From the NCBI RefSeq assembly GCF_947500325.1, contig NZ_CANMRQ010000004.1:62001-126000 (forward strand): a DNA stretch of 64,000 nt. The letters run 5' to 3'. How positions within the stretch are numbered: position 1 is the first letter of the stretch; the number at the start of each line of letters is the position of its first letter. Source of the stretch: an uncultured Lacinutrix sp. GTDB lineage: Bacteria > Bacteroidota > Bacteroidia > Flavobacteriales > Flavobacteriaceae. Shown here piece after piece: positions 3,679-43,018 of this stretch. The notes below the pieces were generated by a model that ran no database searches, was not told the DNA's origin, and saw only the letters and a program-made list of their open reading frames with translations. A program made the position numbers and the translations under genes.

Positions 3679-5163
3679 ATGTCTAAATTAGAAGAAAACG
3701 ATTTATTTATTTTTATTCAGTCATTAAGAAATTCAGAGTACAAGTCTTTTAAGCGTTATCTTCAATCATTAAATAAAAAAGATAGTGTATTAAAATATAA
3801 GTTGTTTGAGGCTATATCTAAAAAAAGAAAATTAGATAAAGCTAAGCTTATAAAAAAATATGCGCTATCTGATAAAAAATATAGTGTATTAAAGTTTGAA
3901 TTATTTCAAGAATTAATAAGTTTTTTAAAAACCAATTATGATACTTATTCAGATATTGCCTTGCAAAATTTAGTTATAGAATTCGAACTATTATTAAATA
4001 GCGGTCTATATATTAAGGCAAATAGAAGGCTAAAAAAAATAAAAGAAATAGCGTTAGAGAAATGCGATTTTAATACCTGTTGTGTAGTACAAAGTAAAGC
4101 TATTAATCATCGTCTATATGTACAAACCAATCCACCAAGTAATTTAGCTAAAGAATCTACTAAGCTTCGGAAATATCAAGAATTATCAGATAATTTAAAT
4201 ACTTACAGATTATTATCTGATGAAGTATTAAATGCGCATTATGAGTATATGGATAAAAGAGTTCACGATAGAGAAACTTTTTTAGATTACTTAAATGATC
4301 CGCATCTTCAAGATATAAATATGGCTTCTTCAGTTATGGCTAAATATTATTTTTATAGGATTAAATCTTTAGTATACTTTGGAGATAATAATTATGAAGA
4401 AAATAAAAAATACTCCTTAATAGCTTATAATTATTTAAAATCACACCCATCAAAATACCGAGATGATTATGTACACTATTTAATTTGTTTGAATAACTAT
4501 TTAGATTCTAGTATTCGTCTACTGGAAACAGAGCCTTTTATGGAGGTCTATCCTAAGATTATTGAGTTAGTAAATAGTAACACAAAAAACAATAGTATTG
4601 ATATTAATACCCAAACATTTCAAGTACTTTGCTCATTAAAACTAAATTATTTTTGGCTTACAAAAGATGTAGATTCATTTTTAAAAGAAGAGCAAGAGTT
4701 TGAAGAAAAATACAAAAAATATGAAGGCACTTTTAGACCTAATTTTAAAATAGAAATTATATTATGCTTAGCAAAAATGTATTTTATTTCTGGAAGCTTA
4801 AAAAAAGCAAATAATTATTGTAAAATGATTAATAATGAAAAAACAAATCCTACATCCTTATTTATTTCCTGTGTTACTTTATTAAGAATTATGATTAATT
4901 ATGATATGGAAAATTATAGACTTATACCACATTTAATTAGTACAAGTAAATATTCGTTAAAAAAGCGAAGCCGCTTATTTAATTTAGAACTTCAATTTTT
5001 AAATGGCTTACATAAAATAAAGTTTTATTATTCTGAAGATGAAAAGTCAAAACTATTTTCTGAACTATATGTAAAAATAAAAACGCTTTTAGAAAATTCT
5101 GAAGAGATTATTGTAGATAAAGAAATTAGAATCTTAGAATGGTTGCAAGAAAAGATTCAATAA
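3679..5163 (+). CDS. Conserved alpha-helical protein of unknown function
   Basis: 494 residues, with no signal peptide or membrane segment. The sequence is Lys/Leu/Tyr rich and almost entirely predicted helix, with repeated helical pairs that suggest a TPR-like solenoid. The N-terminus (FIQSLRNSEYKSFKRYLQSL) resembles a Bacteroidota family of cytoplasmic helical proteins, but I know of no function. It is a single gene with about 250 bp of AT-rich DNA before it. The start at 3679 is the first Met of the frame and reads well (MSKLEENDLFIFIQ). Confidence 0.7.
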   Translation: MSKLEENDLFIFIQSLRNSEYKSFKRYLQSLNKKDSVLKYKLFEAISKKRKLDKAKLIKKYALSDKKYSVLKFELFQELISFLKTNYDTYSDIALQNLVIEFELLLNSGLYIKANRRLKKIKEIALEKCDFNTCCVVQSKAINHRLYVQTNPPSNLAKESTKLRKYQELSDNLNTYRLLSDEVLNAHYEYMDKRVHDRETFLDYLNDPHLQDINMASSVMAKYYFYRIKSLVYFGDNNYEENKKYSLIAYNYLKSHPSKYRDDYVHYLICLNNYLDSSIRLLETEPFMEVYPKIIELVNSNTKNNSIDINTQTFQVLCSLKLNYFWLTKDVDSFLKEEQEFEEKYKKYEGTFRPNFKIEIILCLAKMYFISGSLKKANNYCKMINNEKTNPTSLFISCVTLLRIMINYDMENYRLIPHLISTSKYSLKKRSRLFNLELQFLNGLHKIKFYYSEDEKSKLFSELYVKIKTLLENSEEIIVDKEIRILEWLQEKIQ

Positions 5164-5307
5164 CTACTCTTTCAATAATAATAAAACGAGCCCTATATTA
5201 CTAAGGCTATGTATAAAAGCGTGTAAGTTTCTCTATTTTATAACCTCACATCTATAACAAGACACTTGTTAATCTATATTGCATTCTGTAAGATAACTGG
5301 TATGTAG

Positions 5308-31455: not shown

Positions 31456-32502
31456 TTATATATTTTCTAATCCATTTAATAATTCTCTTAATTTAGAACT
31501 AGAAGGTCTAGGAGCATCGGCATTTACAACATTCCCAGCTGGATCTATTAATATAAACCTAGGAATTCCATTAATTTTGTAACCTTGAACAAAATCAGAT
31601 TTCCATCCTTTGTCAGATAATATTTGAATACCACCTAATTCTTTTTCTTTAATCATTTTTTTCCAACCTTCTTTTGCTGCTGCTGCATCACCTTTAAAGC
31701 CTCTACCATCATCAACAGAAAGGCTTACGAACTCTATGTTTTTATCATGAAAATCTTTTTCAATTTCCTTTAAAGAAGGAATTTCTCTTATACATGGACC
31801 ACACCAAGTTGCCCATACATCTATATAAACATATTTCCCTTTTAAATCGGCTAAAGAGGTTGTGCCTCCTTTTACGTTTTCATAATTAACAAAATCTGGA
31901 GAAGGTTTACCTATAAAATCTGCAAATTGGGTTGCTCTAGCTTTTTGCTGTTTATATGCTCCAGATATACCTTTATTAAATTGGCTAATTTGTAGTTTTT
32001 CGTTAGCAACCAACATAGAATCTAAACCGTTATTGTTGTTTTCTAAAAAGCCATTCATTTCTGTTTCAATTTCTGCTACTTTCTTTTTGAACTCATCTTC
32101 ATCTAAATCAAAAATGCTAGGGTTTATTAGGTTTTCCTGCATTAATGCTTTTTTTACTAAATAGTTGTTTGATTCTGCTCCATTACCAGAAAATTTAATG
32201 GATTCATCAAATTCTTTAGTATCAAGAGTTAAGTTTAAATCATAACCATTTTTTAAAAAAACATTTGTTGACTCATTACCATCATATATACCATACATAC
32301 CTTTTACAACTTTTAAAGTATCGCTAAAGGTTCCATCTTCATTAACTTTTATAGTTTTAGAAAACTGCCTTCCTTGATATACAAATAATGAATCACTATT
32401 CTTGTTAGCAATTTTGCCGGCTAGTGTTACGTAATCTTTAGGTTCTTCTTTACAAGCTATTACTGCTATTGCAGACAAGCATATTAATAATTTTTTCATC
32501 AT
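31456..32502 (-). CDS. TlpA-type thiol-disulfide oxidoreductase lipoprotein (DUF4369 N-terminus)
   Basis: 348 residues. The lipobox is AVIAC (C17). Residues about 25-130 form a beta-rich DUF4369 domain, and about 195-345 a TlpA-like thioredoxin fold with WATWCGPC (C234, C237) and the cis-Pro segment GIPRFILIDPAGNVV. It is periplasmic and reduces or exchanges protein disulfides, with targets unknown. It is a tandem paralogue of the 453-residue gene 16 bp upstream. It lacks most of the helical middle region of that protein. The start could also be the second Met at 32499. Confidence 0.9.
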   Translation of the reverse strand: MMKKLLICLSAIAVIACKEEPKDYVTLAGKIANKNSDSLFVYQGRQFSKTIKVNEDGTFSDTLKVVKGMYGIYDGNESTNVFLKNGYDLNLTLDTKEFDESIKFSGNGAESNNYLVKKALMQENLINPSIFDLDEDEFKKKVAEIETEMNGFLENNNNGLDSMLVANEKLQISQFNKGISGAYKQQKARATQFADFIGKPSPDFVNYENVKGGTTSLADLKGKYVYIDVWATWCGPCIREIPSLKEIEKDFHDKNIEFVSLSVDDGRGFKGDAAAAKEGWKKMIKEKELGGIQILSDKGWKSDFVQGYKINGIPRFILIDPAGNVVNADAPRPSSSKLRELLNGLENI

Positions 32503-32518
32503 GAGTTTTTTTATGGAA

Positions 32519-33880
32519 TTATATATTAAGACTATTAAATAGTTCTTTTAATTTTGGATTAGATGGTCTTGGAGCATCAGCATTAACTATATTTCCTTGA
32601 GGATCTATTAAGATAAATCGTGGTATTCCATTAATACCATAATCAACTACAAATTTTGATTTCCAATCATTATCTGCCATTAGTTGTACACCACCAAGTT
32701 CTTCTTTATTAACCATGTCTACCCATTTTTGGTGAGAATCTGCAACATCAATAGATGTGCTTACAAATGCAATGTTTTTATCGTGGTATTCTTTTTCTAT
32801 TTTTTTAAGAGAAGGAATTTCTGCTTTACATGGTCCACACCAAGTAGCCCAAACATCGACATAAACATATTTACCTTTTAAATCTGAAAGAGAAGTAGTG
32901 CCTCCTTTATGGTTTTCATAATTTACAAATACAGGAGACGGTTTTCCTTTTACTAAATTCTCTGCTCTTTCTAGACCCTTCTTTAATTCTTTCTTTACTT
33001 TTTCGTCTGTTGTATTGTTATTTAAAAATGCATAAGTTTCAGTTAAACTAGCATTAGCAGGAGACAAAGCCATACCTGCCAAATATTGAACAATTTTATT
33101 TTTTAATTCAGGAATTTCTATAGTGCTAATAGTACTTAAATCTGAAGGAGTAATACTATTATAATCCTCTAAACCTTCATAAATAGGGTCCATAACACTC
33201 TTAAATGCAAGTCGTTGATATGATGAAGATGTTTTGTAAGCATTAACATCATTATATATTAAATCTTTAAAAGCTTTAGGTAAAAAATTATCAGAGGTTT
33301 TAAAAGTATCATTCTTGGTAAAATAAGAATGTGCATTTTCATACTGATCTAAAGCTGCGTAAGAATCATATTCAAGATTTTTTAATTCAGTGTTAATAAA
33401 GTTTTTATCCAATCCTTCAGTTATATCTAAAGTCGATTTATGGCTTTCTTTTATTTCATTTACTTTTTCTTTAAATGCAGCTTCGTCAAGTGTATAAAAT
33501 GATTGAGCATTACCTTTAAATTTCTTGTTATTTGAATTCTTAGATGCTAAATATGAACTTTCTTTTGCTCCAACACCAGAAAAACTAAAACCTAATGAGT
33601 CTTTTGTAATAGCAATATTAGCACCAGCTTTAAGGTATAAATTAGCACGTTCTCTACCCAAGCTTAAAGTATAAAATCCATTTTCTTTTATTGTTAAAGT
33701 ATCTAAAAACTTACCTTCTGCATCAATAGCTATTTTTTCTTCAACATCACCGCCAATTAAAGTTATTTCTTTAGCTTTAGTATCTCCAAATTCACCAGAT
33801 AGTATAGTATAGTCAATTTTTGGATCTTCTTTACAAGCTACAATTGCTATCGCGGAAATGCATATTAATAATTTTTTCAT
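32519..33880 (-). CDS. TlpA-type thiol-disulfide oxidoreductase lipoprotein, longer paralogue
   Basis: 453 residues. The lipobox is AIVAC (C16). It has an N-terminal DUF4369-like domain (25-105), a longer helical middle (about 120-310) and a C-terminal TlpA thioredoxin domain with WATWCGPC (C348, C351) and GIPRFILIDPQGNIVNADAP. The first and last parts are very similar to the neighbouring 348-residue protein, including LLICxSAIA and NADAPRPSxxKLxEL, so the pair arose by duplication. It is the first gene of a two-gene operon. Confidence 0.9.
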   Translation of the reverse strand: MKKLLICISAIAIVACKEDPKIDYTILSGEFGDTKAKEITLIGGDVEEKIAIDAEGKFLDTLTIKENGFYTLSLGRERANLYLKAGANIAITKDSLGFSFSGVGAKESSYLASKNSNNKKFKGNAQSFYTLDEAAFKEKVNEIKESHKSTLDITEGLDKNFINTELKNLEYDSYAALDQYENAHSYFTKNDTFKTSDNFLPKAFKDLIYNDVNAYKTSSSYQRLAFKSVMDPIYEGLEDYNSITPSDLSTISTIEIPELKNKIVQYLAGMALSPANASLTETYAFLNNNTTDEKVKKELKKGLERAENLVKGKPSPVFVNYENHKGGTTSLSDLKGKYVYVDVWATWCGPCKAEIPSLKKIEKEYHDKNIAFVSTSIDVADSHQKWVDMVNKEELGGVQLMADNDWKSKFVVDYGINGIPRFILIDPQGNIVNADAPRPSNPKLKELFNSLNI

Positions 33881-34005: not shown

Positions 34006-35517
34006 ATGAGTACAGTACATTATATATCATCTAAAACATTAGATTTAACTACTATAAATGCTATTATAAACGAAAAAAAGCAAATAGCATTATCAGAAGA
34101 AGCAGCAATACGTATTAAAAACTGCCGCCTTTTTTTAGATAAAAAATTACAAGGAGAAACTAAACCGATTTATGGTATAAATACGGGGTTTGGCTCTTTA
34201 TATAATGTTAAAATATCTAAGGAGAATTTAACGAAGCTTCAAGAAAATCTAATGATGTCTCATGCCTGTGGAACAGGAGAAGAAGTGCCGCAGGAAGTTG
34301 TAAAATTAATGTTGTTATTAAAAATTCAATCTCTTAATTATGGGCATTCTGGAAGTCAAATTGAAACGGTAGAGCGTTTAGTTGATTTTTATAATAATGA
34401 TATTTTACCAATTGTTTATACTCAAGGCTCACTTGGAGCATCAGGTGATTTAGCGCCTTTAGCTCATTTGTCTTTACCATTAATAGGAAAAGGTAAAGTA
34501 AATTATAAAGGAAACGTTGTTTCTTCAGAAGTGGTTCTTAAAGAATTTAACTGGGAACCAATTCAATTACAATCTAAAGAAGGTTTGGCCTTGTTAAATG
34601 GTACACAATTTATGAGTGCTTATGGTGTGTATTTACTATTAAAATCATACAAACTTTCTTATTTGGCAGATTTAATAGGAAGTGTTTCTATAGAAGCTTT
34701 TGATGGCAGAATAGAACCTTTTAATGAACTAATCCATATAGTGAGACCACATAATGGACAATTAAAAACCGCTGGCCGTGTTCGTGAGTTTTTAGACGGC
34801 AGCGAGATTATTGGTCAAGCAAAACAGCACGTTCAAGATCCATACTCATTTCGTTGCATTCCTCAAGTACATGGGGCTACAAAGGATACTCTATCTTTTG
34901 TAGAGAAAACATTTACAATAGAAATAAATTCTGTTACAGATAATCCAAATATTTTTTCAAAAGAAGACGAAATTATTTCTGGTGGTAATTTTCATGGGCA
35001 GCCATTAGCTTTAGCTTTAGATTATTTAAAAATTGCTATGGCAGAATTAGGAAACATTTCTGAAAGAAGAATATTTCAACTTGTATCTGGATTAAGAGGT
35101 TTGCCTGCCTTTTTGGTTAATAATCCTGGATTAAATTCTGGATTTATGATACCGCAATATACAGCAGCAAGTATTGTGAGTGCTAATAAACAATTAGCAT
35201 CTCCTGCTTCTATAGATTCAATTGTGTCATCAAATGGTCAAGAAGATCATGTAAGTATGGGAGCAAACGCTGCAACTCAAGCCTATACTTTAATAGATAA
35301 TGTAGAACGTGTTTTAGCTATAGAACTCTTTAACGCTTCACAGGCATTACAATTTAGATCTCCTTTAAAGTCTAGTGATTTTATTGAATTGTTTTTACAA
35401 AGTTATAGGGTAGAAGTGCCTTTTATAGAAGAAGATGAAGTGCTTCATGACGATATTGCTGCATCAATTCAATTTATTCAAACTATAAATATTGATTCAA
35501 GTGAATTGTTTTCTTAA
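34006..35517 (+). CDS. hutH: Histidine ammonia-lyase
   Basis: 503 residues. The MIO cofactor forms from A145-S146-G147 in TQGSLGASGDLAPLAHL. YGINTGFGSLYNV, NGTQFMSAYGVYLL, QDPYSFRCIPQVHG, SVTDNPNIF and FHGQPLALALDYL are all family blocks. It deaminates L-histidine to urocanate. No other hut gene is nearby. The last 75 bp of the gene, up to the first base of the final Ser codon, recur exactly at 39818-39892. The stop codon itself lies in the adjoining block, and the gene overlaps the convergent TonB receptor gene by 4 bp. Confidence 0.93.
   Translation: MSTVHYISSKTLDLTTINAIINEKKQIALSEEAAIRIKNCRLFLDKKLQGETKPIYGINTGFGSLYNVKISKENLTKLQENLMMSHACGTGEEVPQEVVKLMLLLKIQSLNYGHSGSQIETVERLVDFYNNDILPIVYTQGSLGASGDLAPLAHLSLPLIGKGKVNYKGNVVSSEVVLKEFNWEPIQLQSKEGLALLNGTQFMSAYGVYLLLKSYKLSYLADLIGSVSIEAFDGRIEPFNELIHIVRPHNGQLKTAGRVREFLDGSEIIGQAKQHVQDPYSFRCIPQVHGATKDTLSFVEKTFTIEINSVTDNPNIFSKEDEIISGGNFHGQPLALALDYLKIAMAELGNISERRIFQLVSGLRGLPAFLVNNPGLNSGFMIPQYTAASIVSANKQLASPASIDSIVSSNGQEDHVSMGANAATQAYTLIDNVERVLAIELFNASQALQFRSPLKSSDFIELFLQSYRVEVPFIEEDEVLHDDIAASIQFIQTINIDSSELFS
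35438..35512. repeat. 75-bp direct repeat, left copy (hutH 3' end)
   Basis: It is identical base for base to 39818-39892, with an offset of 4380 bp. The left copy encodes the C-terminal residues from VLHDDIAAS to SSELF of HutH. The match stops at 35513 (C here, A in the right copy), just before the hutH stop codon. Confidence 0.95.
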
Positions 35518-38159
35518 AGTTTATAATAAACATTAAATAAAACATACCTAGGAAAAACAAATGTTTCATCTAGCTCTAATACAATACCATTAAAAGATGA
35601 AGTATTGTTTGATTGGTTGTTTAAAATATTTTTTGCTTTCAATTCAAAACTCCAAGGATTATCTTCTTTATGATATAATATTGAAAAATTAAATGTATTA
35701 AAATCGCTATTTCTATCTATGGCGTTTTTACTTTTAAAATAAGTTTGAGAACCATCAATTTTAAAAGTCCATTTTTCTAATTCATGGGATAGCCCTAAAT
35801 ATATATTAGTAGAATTTACTATACTTTTAAAAGTATCACTATTGTTTATTCTGTTGTTGTAATTAATAGAAAAATCGTAATTTATATTTTCTTCAAAATT
35901 AGTTTTAAAATCTAAATACGTAGAAAATGTGTGATTCTTATTATTTGTAATAACATTATTAATAATAGATTTAAAATTAAATATTTCGTAACTAGGTGTC
36001 AAGCTAATATTAAAATATTTTCTATTATATTTTGTTCTTAGTCTTAAATGATAGCTTTCATTTGGAGTGTTTAAGGTTGTCGGAGAAGTTACATTATATA
36101 TATTATTTAATACTGTCTGGTTTATCACTTCTTTAGATCTCTTTCTGTAAGTAAATGATGGATAATAACTAATGCTGTAAGATTTGTAATTTTTATAGTT
36201 TATAGAAAATACTTCGTATTTACTTAAAGGTAAATTCTCATCACCCAAGAATAAAGAATTAAAATTGCGTATTTGATTGCTAACAACACTATTTCTAAAG
36301 TGAAAAAAACGACTTTCGTTTCTATAACTTATTTTTAATTTTTTTTTATTTGTAGGCTCCCAACTTAAGATTGCATTTGGTAAAATAAAAGATTTGTTTT
36401 TGTTAAAGTTTATAGTAGATTGATCACTTTTCCAGTTGTTTTGTTCTAGAGTTATTTTTGTTTCTAGTAAAAAATTGCCAAAAACCTTTTTAGTTTCTAT
36501 ATAAAACTCAAATTTGTTATAATTGCTTTTTGTTTCATTTAAAAAATCTTGAAAAACATTTTGATTACCGTTATTTAGTTCTTGATAAGTAGAGTAATCA
36601 AAATTATTATGTAAATACTCATTTTTTATACCAAAATTTAAATGTGTTTTGCGGTTAACTATCCAATAATATTTTAATGTGGCATCTAGAATATTGTCTA
36701 TATAATTATTTGGATTAACAATAGTATAAAAGTTAGAATTTTGAATTGGGATAGCATCGTTAAATAAATTATCTTGACTTAACCAATTATTTAAACCGTT
36801 ACGTGTTTTGTTAGTATAACTAGTATTGAAAGTAAAGGTGTGTGTTTTGTTAATTTTATTTTTGTAATCTACAGCTAATGAAAATTTAGTTTCATCTAAT
36901 ATAGTATTGGTGTTATAATTAAAATTGTTATTTAAAAATTGAGTAGTATTTATAAAAGCACTTTTTAGGTCAGAAATATCTAAGCGACTCTCCATTTTTA
37001 ATTCTGTATTATTATCACCTTTGTATTTATAATGAAGTTTTGAGAATAAAGCATGTAAATTGTCTTGAGTATTTGTTTTTCTAATTTGTTTACTATTATT
37101 ATCTGTTACATAAGTATTTGAATACCTATTTTTGTATTTAGATTTATCTAACATACCAATAGCAAATATTCTAAACTCATTTTTTGTATTAGGGTTAAGT
37201 TGAAAATTTAAAGCACCAAATTTATGTTTGTTCTCATTAAAATCTTGTACACGAAAAGATTGTGCTAAACTCGAGCTATAAATATTTGTAATATTGTCTT
37301 TATCAAAACCGCCTTCAAAATCTATTAAATCTTTAATAGTAAAAGATTTTTCGTCTGTATTATTTAAATCACCAATTAAGTTATAAGTTGCTTTTGTTCC
37401 ATATTTAAAAAACGTAGGATGTACTTTATATTTTTTATCTATACCAATACCAGCTTCTAAATCTCCAAAAATAAAATTTTTCTTATCATCTTGTAAATTG
37501 ATATTTAAGGCAATTTCCTCACTATTCTCAATGCCTTTCATAAAAGCAGTTTCGTGGTAGTCATCAATTATCTCTACTTCTTTTACGACATCAGCAGGAA
37601 TATTATTAACAGCTACATTAGTATTACCATTAAAAAATTTTTTATTTTCTACTAATACTTGTGTTACTTTTTTTCCTTGAGATTCCACATTACCTTTTTT
37701 ATCTACTGTAACACCAGGTAATTTTTTTAAAACTTCTCTTAATTTACGTTCATTACCGTTTACGAAAGCAGATACATTGTAGGTAATAGTATCTTTTCTT
37801 ACGTTAATATCTGGTTTGTATTCTAGTATAACTTCTTTAAGTTCGTTTGGATCTAGTTGTAGTGTGAAATTTTTTTTTAAGTTGTTTTTTTTAACAGTTA
37901 AGGTATCATTGTAAGTAATATAACCGATATGGCTTAATGTTAATTTGTAAGTAGTATTATCTTTTAGTTCTATGGAATAACTACCATTAGCTTTAGAAGT
38001 AGAAAAAGACATATTAGCTTCTTTATCTAAAGGAAAAGCTAAAATATTAACATTTTGTAAAGTATTATTATCTGACCCTGAAATATTACCATATAAAGTA
38101 GATTGAGAAAAACAAACAGTATTATAAAAAAACAATACTATTAGTATAATGTATCTCAT
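35514..38159 (-). CDS. TonB-dependent outer-membrane receptor with carboxypeptidase-like N-terminal domain
   Basis: 881 residues. The signal peptide ends at about VCFS (residues 1-18). Residues 20-105 are a carboxypeptidase-regulatory-like beta-sandwich (LYGNISGSDNNTLQNVNILAFP, GSYSIELKDNTTYKLTLSHIGY). Residues about 115-225 are a plug (REVLKKLPGVTVDKKGNVESQGKKVTQVLVENKKFF), and the rest is a barrel with aromatic strands ending FVFPRYVLFNVYYKL. It is probably an importer of an unknown ligand. It is coupled 5 bp after a GLPGLI protein gene, a common pairing in Bacteroidota. It lies inside the 75-bp repeat-flanked block. Confidence 0.85.
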   Translation of the reverse strand: MRYIILIVLFFYNTVCFSQSTLYGNISGSDNNTLQNVNILAFPLDKEANMSFSTSKANGSYSIELKDNTTYKLTLSHIGYITYNDTLTVKKNNLKKNFTLQLDPNELKEVILEYKPDINVRKDTITYNVSAFVNGNERKLREVLKKLPGVTVDKKGNVESQGKKVTQVLVENKKFFNGNTNVAVNNIPADVVKEVEIIDDYHETAFMKGIENSEEIALNINLQDDKKNFIFGDLEAGIGIDKKYKVHPTFFKYGTKATYNLIGDLNNTDEKSFTIKDLIDFEGGFDKDNITNIYSSSLAQSFRVQDFNENKHKFGALNFQLNPNTKNEFRIFAIGMLDKSKYKNRYSNTYVTDNNSKQIRKTNTQDNLHALFSKLHYKYKGDNNTELKMESRLDISDLKSAFINTTQFLNNNFNYNTNTILDETKFSLAVDYKNKINKTHTFTFNTSYTNKTRNGLNNWLSQDNLFNDAIPIQNSNFYTIVNPNNYIDNILDATLKYYWIVNRKTHLNFGIKNEYLHNNFDYSTYQELNNGNQNVFQDFLNETKSNYNKFEFYIETKKVFGNFLLETKITLEQNNWKSDQSTINFNKNKSFILPNAILSWEPTNKKKLKISYRNESRFFHFRNSVVSNQIRNFNSLFLGDENLPLSKYEVFSINYKNYKSYSISYYPSFTYRKRSKEVINQTVLNNIYNVTSPTTLNTPNESYHLRLRTKYNRKYFNISLTPSYEIFNFKSIINNVITNNKNHTFSTYLDFKTNFEENINYDFSINYNNRINNSDTFKSIVNSTNIYLGLSHELEKWTFKIDGSQTYFKSKNAIDRNSDFNTFNFSILYHKEDNPWSFELKAKNILNNQSNNTSSFNGIVLELDETFVFPRYVLFNVYYKL

Positions 38160-38164
38160 AAATA

Positions 38165-38848
38165 TTAATCTTTAGTTACTTTTCGTTCTTTTTTACGTAG
38201 TATTAATTTTTCTTTTATTGATATTTCTTCAGCATTCTCTAATTTGGGGATTTTAATTTTTTTTAAGTTTAACTTTATACTCTCAGGAGTGTATACAAAA
38301 CCATTTCTGTTTTTTAATTCTAAAATTAGTCCAGGCAAGCCACCATATCCAATGGGGCCAAATGGAACAGGTATTTGGGGTGTATACCAAGCTTCTATAA
38401 TATAATCTTTTTGACTACGTGTGTTAAATAGGGTTAATGTAGCCTTATAACATTCATAATTCTCAATTATTTTAGATTCGTTTGTAAGTTTCCAATTATT
38501 CATTTTAGAAGTATCTACTACTCTATATACTTTACTACTGATTTCAGAAATGTAAATTGTTTTTTTATCATTTACTAATTGATGAATCTCTTCTTTAGAA
38601 CCAGAAGCAATAGATGCCATTATAGATGCTAGCTTTTTTATTGGAACATTTTTGTTTTTTTTAAAAAATGATTTTTCTTTATTATATACTAATTGGAAAG
38701 ACATTAATTCTAACTCATCATGTATATCAGCTCTTTTTTCATTTGATAAATCTACTGTTGGAGTAATTATATATGTTATAACTCCATTTTGACAGTATGT
38801 TGAGTTAGACAAAAGTAATATTGTTATTATTGTAATAATGTTTTTCAT
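38165..38848 (-). CDS. GLPGLI family secreted protein
   Basis: 227 residues. The signal peptide ends at about STYCQ (residue 20). The name-giving motif GLPGLI occupies 170-175 in GYGGLPGLILEL, preceded by EAWYTPQIPVPFGP, which is also typical. The C-terminus is very basic (LILRKKERKVTKD). The biochemical role is not known to me. It is probably translated with the TonB receptor that follows 5 bp later. Confidence 0.92.
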   Translation of the reverse strand: MKNIITIITILLLSNSTYCQNGVITYIITPTVDLSNEKRADIHDELELMSFQLVYNKEKSFFKKNKNVPIKKLASIMASIASGSKEEIHQLVNDKKTIYISEISSKVYRVVDTSKMNNWKLTNESKIIENYECYKATLTLFNTRSQKDYIIEAWYTPQIPVPFGPIGYGGLPGLILELKNRNGFVYTPESIKLNLKKIKIPKLENAEEISIKEKLILRKKERKVTKD

Positions 38849-38912
38849 AATTAAATTTTAATAAAATAAAAATAAGCCATCATAAGTATTTATAAATATG
38901 ACAGCTCTTTTT

Positions 38913-39134
38913 TTAATCATCATTGTAAGTTCCCATGCAAAGCTCGTATCCAACACTATATGCATAATCTACATCTTCTTCTGTTGCTTCTCCAAAAATA
39001 GCTTCATACTGTTCAACCATTTGGCAACCTCTTAAATGACAATCCTTTGTGAACTCATTTTTTTCAAATGTAGTAGCATTTACAAGCGATACAAATAGCA
39101 TTAGTGTAAACACACTACTTAAGACTTTTTTCAT
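38913..39134 (-). CDS. Small secreted acidic cysteine-containing protein, unknown
   Basis: 73 residues. A signal peptide (KKVLSSVFTLMLFVSLVNA) precedes a mature part of about 53 residues with three Cys (C32, C37, C66) and 13 Asp or Glu. CHLRGC is the only close Cys pair. It sits between the thioredoxin-like and GLPGLI genes inside the repeat-flanked block, all on one strand. A secreted peptide or metal-binding partner of the receptor is possible, but that is only an inference from position. Confidence 0.6.
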   Translation of the reverse strand: MKKVLSSVFTLMLFVSLVNATTFEKNEFTKDCHLRGCQMVEQYEAIFGEATEEDVDYAYSVGYELCMGTYNDD

Positions 39135-39255
39135 AATTTAATAAATTTAATTGGTTTATAATCAATCAAATTTAAAAGTAATATTTGTTTAAAAAAAATT
39201 AATATGTTATTATAAAATTTAATTTAAAACAATTTAATAATATGATCACGGATTC

Positions 39256-39780
39256 TTAGTCTAAATAGGTGTGTTTGTAGGTGTTGTTTTTGAGAATTTT
39301 AAGTAAATCTTGTTCTAGAGATTCTATTGGGGTTTCAACAATTCTATTTATTTCTTTCCCTTTTTTATATATAATTATTGTAGGAACATAATTTATAATC
39401 TTACCCAATTCTACCTTATTAGGAGATGTTTTCTTTTTGTCCAAACCAAATAATTTTAAGTTGTTTATATTATAATTAATACTATCTAATATTTTTAAAA
39501 ACCGTGGTACTTGCCTTTGGCTATCGTTACACCAACTACCTAAGTAAATAGAGACAGTATAATCTTTGGGGATTTTTTTTAATTCTTCTAAATAGTTATG
39601 TTTTAGCCTGTATGTGTTATAATTTTTATTAAACCATTCAGTATGTTTTTCATCTTTTAAATCTAGAAGATTTATTTGTCCTATGAACATGGTTTCATTT
39701 TTTGGATTTTGTTTAGTAGTACCACAATTAAAAAAGGAGAATATTATAAGTGTTATTGTTAGTGTTTTTTTTTTGCTCAT
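39256..39780 (-). CDS. Thioredoxin-like lipoprotein with a single-cysteine active site
   Basis: 174 residues from the ATG at 39780. The frame extends upstream to 39828, but those 16 codons run into the copied hutH repeat and spoil the signal peptide, so the downstream Met is preferred. The signal reads KKTLTITLIIFSFFNC, with C19 as a possible lipid site. The thioredoxin fold is visible in YTVSIYLGSWCNDSQRQVPRFLKILD and the cis-Pro INYVPTIIIYKKGKEINRI. The CxxC is replaced by WCNDS (C84 only), so disulfide exchange by the usual two-Cys route is unlikely. Confidence 0.75.
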   Translation of the reverse strand: MSKKKTLTITLIIFSFFNCGTTKQNPKNETMFIGQINLLDLKDEKHTEWFNKNYNTYRLKHNYLEELKKIPKDYTVSIYLGSWCNDSQRQVPRFLKILDSINYNINNLKLFGLDKKKTSPNKVELGKIINYVPTIIIYKKGKEINRIVETPIESLEQDLLKILKNNTYKHTYLD

Positions 39781-39817
39781 TGTAGTTATTTTAATATTTA
39801 AGTACTTTAAAAATATA

Positions 39818-39892
39818 AAGTGCTTCATGACGATATTGCTGCATCAATTCAATTTATTCAAACTATAAATATTGATTCAAGTGAATTGTTTT
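39818..39892. repeat. 75-bp direct repeat, right copy (relic of hutH 3' end)
   Basis: Identical to 35438-35512. Read on the plus strand it keeps the HutH frame and runs straight into a stop (GAA TTG TTT TAA), so it looks like the original end of hutH left behind by an insertion. Confidence 0.95.
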
Positions 39893-39898
39893 AACTGG

Positions 39899-40297
39899 CT
39901 AATTTAACTTGGTGAATTTTTGTGTTGAATAATTAGTTTTAATGAGTGTATTTGCCCAATTAATAGCATCATCATATAGATCAAAACTTTCAAACGGTTT
40001 TTTTAAGAAAAGTTTTTCTATTTCTATATTTTGAAGAGATAATGAGTTATTTGACACTACAGCAAAACCTAATAATTCATTAATTTTTGAAATTGAAAGA
40101 TAGGTTATTGGATCTACAGAATAAGAGTGTAATCTATGTGATATATAGACAAAAGGCTTGTTTTTAATATATTCTTTTATAGTATTTATAATTTCTTTAC
40201 TTACCGCTTCGGTAATATGTATTCCTTCTTTAATAATAGAAATTATTATTTGTCCTTCAATTTTAAGTGAGCAATAAGGGAGTTCAATTTGTTTCAT
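39899..40297 (-). CDS. Small cytoplasmic protein, SpoIIAA/STAS-like, unknown function
   Basis: 132 residues without a signal peptide. The beginning QIELPYCSLKIEGQIIISIIKEGIHI and FVYISHRLHSYSVDPITYL, followed by ELLGFAVVSNN, fits the alternating beta-alpha layout of SpoIIAA/STAS-like domains seen in Bacteroidota. The assignment is by general pattern only. It lies just outside the right repeat, so it was probably the original neighbour of hutH. Confidence 0.6.
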   Translation of the reverse strand: MKQIELPYCSLKIEGQIIISIIKEGIHITEAVSKEIINTIKEYIKNKPFVYISHRLHSYSVDPITYLSISKINELLGFAVVSNNSLSLQNIEIEKLFLKKPFESFDLYDDAINWANTLIKTNYSTQKFTKLN

Positions 40298-40447: not shown

Positions 40448-43018
40448 TTATGACTCTGTAGGTTTTTCAGATTTTTCAATTTTTATAGTTATTTCATCAG
40501 TTTTTTTATCTAAATCCATAATAATTTTGTCTCCATCTTGAATCTGAGATGTTATTATTTCTTCGGCTAAAGCATCTTCAACATATTTTTGAATAGCTCT
40601 TTTTAAAGGACGAGCACCATATTGCTTATCAAAACCTTTGTCTGCAATATAATCTTTAGCAGCTTTGGTTAATTTAAGTGTGTAACCTAAGCCTTTAATT
40701 CTTGCTAATAGCTTATCTAATTCAATATCAATAATTTTGTTAATGTCTTCTTTTTCTAAGGCATTAAAAACTACAACATCATCAATTCTATTTAAAAATT
40801 CAGGAGCAAATGATTTCTTTAATGCATTTTGAATTACAGCTCTTGCGTTTGCATCTTCCTGAGATTTTTGTGAAGATGTACCAAAGCCCATTCCTGTACC
40901 AAAGTCTTTTAATTTACGAGCTCCAATATTTGAAGTCATAATAATAATGGTGTTTCTGAAATCAATTTTTCTTCCTAGAGAATCTGTTAAATATCCATCA
41001 TCTAAAACTTGTAAAAGCATATTAAAAACATCTGGATGAGCTTTCTCAATTTCATCTAAAAGCACAACAGCATATGGTTTGCGTCTTACTTTTTCTGTTA
41101 ATTGTCCACCTTCTTCATAACCTACATAGCCTGGAGGCGCACCAACTAAACGCGAAATAGCAAATTTTTCCATGTATTCACTCATGTCTATTCTAATAAG
41201 CGATTCTTCGCTATCAAACAATTCACGAGAGAGTACTTTTGCTAATTGGGTTTTACCAACGCCTGTTTGACCTAAAAAGATAAATGAACCTATTGGCTTA
41301 TTTGGATCTTTAAGTCCTGCACGATTACGCTGAATAGCTTTTACAACCTTAGCAACTGCTTCGTCTTGGCCAATTACTTTTCCATTAATTAAATCTGGTA
41401 ACTCGGCTAATTTATTACTTTCTGTTTGTGCTATACGATTTACTGGAACTCCAGTCATCATAGATATCACATCTGCTACATTGTCTTCAGTAACTGTAAC
41501 TTTGTGTAGTTTTGTGTCTTCTTCCCATTTTTCTTGAGCAATAGATAGTTCTTTTTCTAAACGTTTTTCGTCATCTCGCAAACGAGCAGCTTCTTCGTAT
41601 TTTTGCTTTTTAACAACAGAATTCTTAGTTGCTTTTACATCTTCAAGCTTCTTTTCTAGTTCAAGAATTTGTTTAGGAACATCTATATTAGTTATATGCA
41701 CTCGAGAACCAGCTTCATCTAAAGCATCAATTGCTTTGTCTGGAAGAAAACGCTCAGTCATATAACGATTAGTTAACTTTACACAAGCTTCTATTGCTTC
41801 ATCTGTATATTCTACATTATGGTGCTCTTCGTATTTTCCTTTTATATTATTTAATATTTCGATGGTTTCATCTACAGTAGTAGGTTCAACAATTACTTTT
41901 TGAAAACGACGTTCTAATGCACCATCCTTTTCTATATATTGTCTATACTCATCTAAAGTAGTTGCTCCAATACATTGTATTTCTCCTCTTGCTAAAGCTG
42001 GCTTAAACATATTTGAAGCATCTAAACTTCCAGTAGCACCACCAGCACCAACAATAGTGTGAATTTCATCTATAAAAAGAATAACATCGTCATTCTTCTC
42101 TAATTCATTCATTACGGCTTTCATTCGCTCTTCAAATTGCCCACGATATTTTGTACCAGCAACTAAACTAGCTAAGTCTAATGTCACAACACGTTTATTA
42201 AATAAAATACGAGAAACCTTTCGTTTTACAATTCTATTTGCTAAACCTTCAGCGATAGCACTTTTACCTACACCTGGTTCTCCTATTAATAAGGGATTGT
42301 TTTTCTTTCTTCTAGATAGAATTTGAGAAACTCGTTCTATTTCTTTTTCACGGCCAACAACAGGATCTAATTTTCCTTCTTCAGCCATGGCTGTAAGATC
42401 TCTTCCAAAATTATCTAAAACAGGTGTCTTAGATTTTTTATTGCCTTTACCGGTTGGTGTATTAAAAATATCTTTAGATTCATTGCCTTCATTAGCTTGA
42501 GCATCATCATCCTGAAAAGACTCAGCCTTTGGCTCTATGTAATTGTCGTCGTTTGTAATCATAGACTTAAATTGTTCTTTAACATTGTCATAATCTACTT
42601 TTAGCTTATTTAAGAGCTTAGTTGTAGGGTCGTTTTCATTTCTTAAAATACACAATAACAAATGTGCAGTATTAATAGAGGTGCTTTGAAAAAGTTTTGC
42701 CTCTAAAAAGGTGGTCTTTAGCGCCCGTTCTGCTTGTCTTGTTAGGTGTAAGTTCTTTTTTTCATTTGAGGTAATAGTTACGTTAGGATTTGCGGGACTC
42801 AATATTTCAACTTTCCGTCTTAGATGATTTAAATCTATATCTAGGGCGTTTAATATATTAATTGCTTTTCCGTTTCCGTCTCTAAGTAAACCAAGCATAA
42901 GGTGTTCGGTCCCAATAAAATCATGACCTAAGCGAAGCGCTTCCTCTTTGCTGTAAGCGATTACATCCTTTACTCTTGGTGAAAAATTGTCATCCATATT
43001 TTGTGTCCTTATCGTCAT
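40448..43018 (-). CDS. clpC: ATP-dependent Clp protease ATP-binding subunit ClpC
   Basis: 856 residues. Two N-terminal Clp repeats lie within 10-155 ([32 protein letters not shown]). The first AAA+ module has GEPGVGKSA, a UVR-type middle region has [22 protein letters not shown], and the second AAA+ module has GQTGVGKTQ and [27 protein letters not shown]. The UVR segment and middle-domain length identify ClpC rather than ClpA or ClpB. It unfolds proteins for ClpP. It is a single gene divergent from gyrA, with a 241-bp AT-rich gap. Confidence 0.93.

Follow-up and report, generated by a model that had tools for sequence, protein, structure and literature searches.

A four-gene operon between hutH and its convergent neighbour in an uncultured Lacinutrix sp., a probable insertion bordered by a second copy of the hutH tail

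The minimal mobile elements of Neisseria reportedly carry no mobility genes, lie between conserved genes and are exchanged via the flanking core DNA, while cis-mobilizable elements are integrase-less islands that are moved in trans. Genomic islands at gene 3' ends have the end of the gene as a direct repeat on either side; a 10-kb island of Riemerella anatipestifer is located at a 53-bp att site (PMC6764341). Homology-facilitated illegitimate recombination, in which a RecA-dependent anchor is combined with an illegitimate joint of short homology, works without an integrase and, according to excerpts of PMC6382021 and PMC8504540, has been seen in laboratory transformation of other bacteria. Here we describe a window of 64,000 nucleotides, i.e., the whole stretch of DNA analyzed (positions 62001-126000 of contig C4 in a draft genome of 4.57 Mb and 130 contigs), from an uncultured Lacinutrix sp., in which a block of four genes lies between hutH, encoding histidine ammonia-lyase, and p132, its usual convergent neighbour in relatives, with a copy of the hutH tail at either end.

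By the definition of the Neisseria elements, the hutH block resembles them in that cargo without mobility genes lies between conserved genes and empty sites occur in relatives; it has one duplicated flank, whereas they are not known to have a duplicated gene tail. From the cis-mobilizable and Riemerella islands it differs in that no integrase or further att copy was found and in its class of cargo, while its joints are not assignable to homology-facilitated illegitimate recombination from one sequence. Among the GLPGLI/outer-membrane-barrel operons of Flavobacteriaceae, an operon in genome G290 has the same four genes in the same order, but these operons have other neighbours and eight loci lack a two-sided repeat. 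Among the top-ranked papers of searches in an open-licence library, no report of this operon, or of hutH as an insertion site, was noticed, which does not prove that there is none.

Duplicated hutH tail and empty sites in relatives

Bases 35438-35512, in the tail of hutH, recur at 39818-39892 with identity at all 75 of 75 bases and an offset of 4380 bp. The edges of the repeat are sharp: six of nine bases match just upstream, and downstream there is no run of similarity. The left copy continues as TTTTCTTAAAG, where hutH terminates in ...ELFS*, while the right copy continues as TTTTAACTGG and reads ...ELF* in the hutH frame, with a stop at 39892-39894; the convergent p132 ORF (132 residues) has its own stop codon 4 bp away. 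All four ORFs between the copies are on the minus strand. The initial annotation had described both this perfect copy around four opposite-strand genes and the contrast between a TCT TAA ending on the left and a right copy reading straight into TAA, and the coordinates bear out the two observations. Approximately 1e-30 exact 75-bp pairs would be expected per 64 kb at 29.2% G+C (an arithmetic estimate), and a chance origin of the pair is impossible. In the window no other exact direct repeat of at least 24 bp was found, although one pair of ~20 bp occurs at 32479/33860. The components of the locus are as follows.

34006-35517, plus strand: hutH, histidine ammonia-lyase, 503 aa, ending ...ELFS* (Pfam Lyase_aromatic, E 1.4e-186); contains the left repeat copy
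35438-35512, plus strand: left repeat copy, 75 bp, close to the end of hutH (75/75 against 39818-39892)
35513-39817, no strand assigned: block of 4305 bp, very probably inserted; G+C 24.1%, against 29.2% for the window; empty sites in relatives
39818-39892, plus strand: right repeat copy, 75 bp, probably non-coding; an in-frame TAA follows at 39892-39894
39899-40297, minus strand: p132, the usual convergent hutH neighbour in relatives; without Pfam or NCBIfam match
40448-43018, minus strand: clpC, the conserved right flank, 93-96% identical and in the same order in 11 same-genus hutH loci

The hutH 3' regions of 72 relatives, each with 365-10,599 bp of downstream sequence, were compared with this arrangement. 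The p132 match ends no more than 134 bp from the hutH stop in 36 of the 72 regions, 15 of them at a distance of 1-20 bp; it lies 0.8-8.8 kb away in seven and is absent in 29, six of which have clpC within 166 bp. Within the genus, hutH is carried by 11 of 12 other genomes (84-85% identity for the hutH of G010, G011 and G004), and ten of these 11 have the tight hutH-p132 pair. Since the tight pairs in 36 regions leave no room for the block, it is almost certainly an insertion between hutH and p132, judged by this comparison. The initial annotation had placed an insertion at the hutH stop codon and named the search for an empty site in close relatives as the decisive check; that check has now been made, and its outcome agrees with the proposal. 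Furthermore, the block proteins, sought by tblastn in 32 of the 72 hutH loci, were found in none (0/32).

The right copy is the favoured candidate for the native hutH-p132 junction, because the hutH genes of L097, L100 and L101 end in TTTTAA, as it does, and because tight hutH-p132 spacing is common. Against this, G010, whose hutH is the nearest among the ten relatives, has the ending TTTTCTTAAA (LFS*), which agrees with the left copy instead. The empty chromosome would then be expected to read hutH ...GAATTGTTTTAACTGG....

Across the 75-bp segment, 59 of 75 bases are common with G010, the best of ten relatives compared, and 46-53 of 75 with the nine others, so the segment evolves fast. As the two copies are identical in spite of this divergence, the copied tail came from the resident lineage rather than from any foreign source. 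The comparison shows that the 75 bp at the right edge duplicate the tail of the resident hutH, to which they are far closer than any of the ten relatives is. Either the insertion happened recently or conversion has held the two copies identical. The suggestion of a recent event, made when only the window had been read, is thus supported by 75/75 identity within the genome against 59/75 in the best of ten relatives, with conversion as the alternative. An imported hutH tail was also considered and rejected: sliding identity along hutH against the ten relatives shows no mosaic and no imported 3' part.

The site may have been used repeatedly by insertions, given the seven of 72 regions with extra DNA; the larger hutH-p132 gaps, of 5.5-8.8 kb, are those of L037, L121, L130 and L151. 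In L039 and L104, which belong to different genera, ~0.8 kb starting just after the hutH stop separates hutH from p132, and the extra DNA begins alike (GCGCAAT.AACACAAAA.CGACT.TGAGG), perhaps reflecting another shared insertion at the site. The p132 gene itself, a common neighbour of hutH and clpC, occurs as two or three copies in a row in nine of the 72 regions (L034, L044, L050, L093, L094, L096, L099, L100 and L142).

Cargo genes and related operons

The block, low in G+C, is an operon, very probably acquired horizontally, of the following composition.

35514-38159, minus strand: outer-membrane beta-barrel (TonB-dependent-receptor-like) protein, 881 aa (CarbopepD_reg_2, E 3.9e-8)
38165-38848, minus strand: GLPGLI family protein, 227 aa (TIGR01200, E 7.8e-36)
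38913-39134, minus strand: small peptide, probably secreted, 73 aa, with a DCHxxxC motif (sequence matches in G290 and G235)
39256-39780, minus strand: thioredoxin-like protein, probable lipoprotein, ~174 aa (Thioredoxin_9, E 5.1e-8)
39781-39817, minus strand: operon leader, only 37 bp from the right repeat to the first start codon (from the sequence)

The stop codon of the barrel gene overlaps that of hutH in the sequence TTAA, which gives a stop codon on both strands, so hutH probably remains functional. The best full-length match of the barrel protein among the 12 other same-genus genomes is 34% identical, while the closest barrel gene (48%) is found in Bizionia argentinensis, together with GLPGLI and thioredoxin genes. 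The 73-aa peptide has matches in only two of 396 other family genomes, G290 and G235, with its operon position unchanged; the thioredoxin-like protein has matches in 261 of 397 family genomes, the own genome included. The thioredoxin-like ORF was listed from 39828, but a start at 39780 (MSKKKTLTI...), within the block, is likelier, and the repeat is therefore probably not part of this protein. The DCHxxxC motif, possibly metal binding, is common to the operon peptides of the window (38913-39134, minus strand), L208 (5257-5484) and L209 (5503-5712).

In G290, which belongs to another genus, all four genes lie in unchanged order between genes read as miaA and ychF, and the stops of the barrel and ychF-like genes overlap (gap -4). 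In G235, transposase-like ORFs stand between the thioredoxin gene and the genes for the peptide, the GLPGLI protein and the barrel. A scan of titled genomes returned 80 barrel-family loci, in nine of which, in Tenacibaculum, Polaribacter and others, the peptide was recognised. The peptide, GLPGLI and barrel genes occur together in Tenacibaculum and Polaribacter, and the thioredoxin, GLPGLI and barrel genes in Bizionia; operons of the same type thus adjoin different core genes in other flavobacteria. At eight other loci (L208, L209, L212-L214, L217, L222 and L237) a repeat on both sides of the operon was found in none, whereas one-sided local repeats occur near the operon in L212, L214 and L237. 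Near stop-to-stop arrangements with a convergent core gene were seen in L213, with a gap of 0 to a trkH-like gene, and in L212, with a gap of 42 bp.

Candidate mechanisms

With regard to how the tail came to be present twice, we consider it an even call that a one-sided event, i.e., homology-assisted or template-switching recombination, was responsible. The horizontally acquired operon, entering between hutH and p132, would have been joined to the hutH end homologously or stop to stop. The single illegitimate joint would lie at 39817/39818, where the strand would have re-entered hutH 75 bp before its end. Candidate routes are homology-facilitated illegitimate recombination in transformation, replication template switching, and unequal exchange of a filled allele with an empty one. 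Among 66 convergent gene pairs called in stretches of the own genome, three overlap by 4 bases, presumably including the hutH-barrel pair. The left edge of the block is one base from the barrel gene stop codon and so looks like a natural gene end, while the right edge, only 37 bp before the first start codon, resembles a random break. This asymmetry, together with a ComEC-domain match in the genome (195 bits), the lack of a Ku match there, and the absence of a recombinase, fold signal and inverted repeats at the block, favours the one-sided event. Natural competence is reported for Riemerella, which PMC7965970 assigns to the Flavobacteriaceae; in Flavobacterium johnsoniae, according to the same paper, it was not observed.

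Several points weigh against this account. From one side of the presumed illegitimate joint, where six of nine bases match, microhomology is not provable, and site-specific integration would leave the same edges. ComEC alone does not show competence. No full TAnnTTTG box was found in the 150 bases scanned upstream of the operon (a scan that began at 39783, 3 bp short of the likely start codon, which should make no difference to its outcome), and a promoter may lie inside the right repeat. Six Tenacibaculum loci have their next convergent ORF more than 500 bp off, and in 12 of the 80 barrel loci the distance to a convergent ORF is below 15 bp, including 11 in which neither a peptide nor a thioredoxin gene was recognised; close ends are therefore not special to the four-gene operon. 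Moreover, the species is represented by a single draft genome.

A fairly unlikely explanation is site-specific integration, with the repeats as attL and attR: an island of the cis-mobilizable kind, lacking an integrase, would have been moved in trans to the 3' end of hutH. As in integrative elements, a direct repeat at the 3' end of hutH restores the gene end (ELF* in frame); 14 tyrosine-recombinase (integrase) matches elsewhere in the genome could act in trans, and seven of the 72 relatives have 0.8-8.8 kb of extra DNA between hutH and p132. The Riemerella anatipestifer island (PMC6764341) offers a precedent. Nevertheless, the four block ORFs have no match to recombinase or transposase families in Pfam or NCBIfam, as the initial annotation had noted of integrases, and the 14 integrases of the genome (taken automatically as the longest ORFs, three of them below 200 aa) had no match in the 72 hutH regions, in a search without positive control. 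Nor was a third copy of the repeat found in the draft genome (40 of 87 candidates scored) or an unusual att-like fold or dyad at the site (z = -0.19), viral contigs do not contain a 30-bp stretch taken from the repeat, and the eight other operon loci have no two-sided repeat. Taken together with the lack of significant terminal inverted repeats (p = 0.44), these results do not support the analogy with integrative elements that had been drawn at first. Transposition with a 75-bp target-site duplication, which would also account for sharp identical flanks around an insert, is highly improbable: neither a transposase nor terminal inverted repeats were found at the block, and 75 bp far exceeds the target duplications known for bacterial transposons. 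An assembler might have made the second copy, as the draft comprises 130 contigs, but this is scarcely credible, since the repeat lies inside a contig of 355,822 bp and falls short of usual read lengths. Both copies, moreover, adjoin unique sequence, and a native-looking stop and neighbour belong to the right one alone.

It is also unlikely that the operon arrived together with a hutH tail on a circle, or on repeated linear DNA, and was integrated by a Campbell-type single crossover, i.e., a RecA exchange with the chromosomal tail. This structure is seen in G037, from another family, where hutH is followed by ~2.3 kb of cargo and then by a second hutH 3' end (L045:2158-2575 and 4890-5307). The cargo there, a membrane protein read as CPBP-like and a small gene, is different, and the duplication is independent of that in the window. 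The G037 copies are identical over 217 bp, across the stop and beyond, while the 201 bp upstream have 25 differences, of which 18 fall on third codon positions (one third expected; P = 8.8e-5). This bias points to another functional hutH allele as the source of the diverged part, i.e., to homologous exchange, although selection on the functional copy could explain part of it. After the first copy stands a 73-nt remnant (81%) of the 3' end of the next gene. In the window, by contrast, the repeat is only 75 bp and has no diverged margin, so a circle would have needed this species' own hutH tail. Furthermore, no hutH-tail DNA was found in plasmid records and no block or tail DNA in phage records, and viral collections also gave no close match; the barrel matches on plasmids (17 records; block DNA was not searched against plasmids) are distant and partial only.

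The hutH tail was also tried as a general hotspot and rejected. A hutH C-terminal query, insensitive to 25-residue fragments in distant genomes, gave matches in 335 of 397 family genomes, own included; 78 multi-match genomes, plus G258 and G325, were re-searched, and the second match of G010 was also checked. The extra matches lay in long reading frames of paralogous lyases at other places; the one exception is G184, which has a single gene broken into two neighbouring pieces. When each hutH tail of the 72 regions was compared with its own downstream DNA, a long duplication appeared only in G037, and the six other matches listed were weak (16-43 bp).

It seems quite improbable that flavobacteria share a way of adding operons at core-gene 3' ends without an integrase, in which a circle or strand pairs with the tail and a single exchange follows. 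If they did, the hutH tails of the window and of G037 would be two snapshots of one process, and the duplicated tail left behind would also permit later excision and transfer. The hutH block is a clean and apparently recent snapshot of an operon without a mobility gene entering the chromosome with the host gene probably spared. Alone, the block amounts to one ordinary gene acquisition, of modest interest unless the pattern is general; taken together with G037 as an independent case, it makes insertion at gene ends without an integrase testable in flavobacteria, where such operons adjoin varied core genes.

Other repeats in the genome

As a same-genome control, 755,822 bp, i.e., all of contig C4 and 400 kb of contig C1, were scanned with 32-bp exact seeds at a spacing of 300-40,000 bp. 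The scan listed 43 repeat pairs, the hutH-tail pair among them. Four other C4 pairs and a C1 array were inspected, and in none of them do foreign genes lie between two copies of a gene tail. The C1 array, at ~227,400-233,600 (L196:7411-13600), consists of four imperfect palindromic repeats of 165 nt, 94-100% identical, and three diverged ones, which separate small ORFs resembling toxin/immunity pairs behind a 740-aa gene and look like cassette borders; it is a different phenomenon from the hutH-tail pair.

Near hutH, two adjacent thioredoxin-domain proteins, read as TlpA-like, are encoded at 31456-33880 on the minus strand, and their genes have a 206-nt stretch in common at 80% identity, a tandem duplication. 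Elsewhere on contig C4, at 279744-285030 (L180, L181), two short repeat pairs with offsets of 4880 and 4936 bp surround a 1264-aa ORF, ~5 kb from an integrase match (L154).

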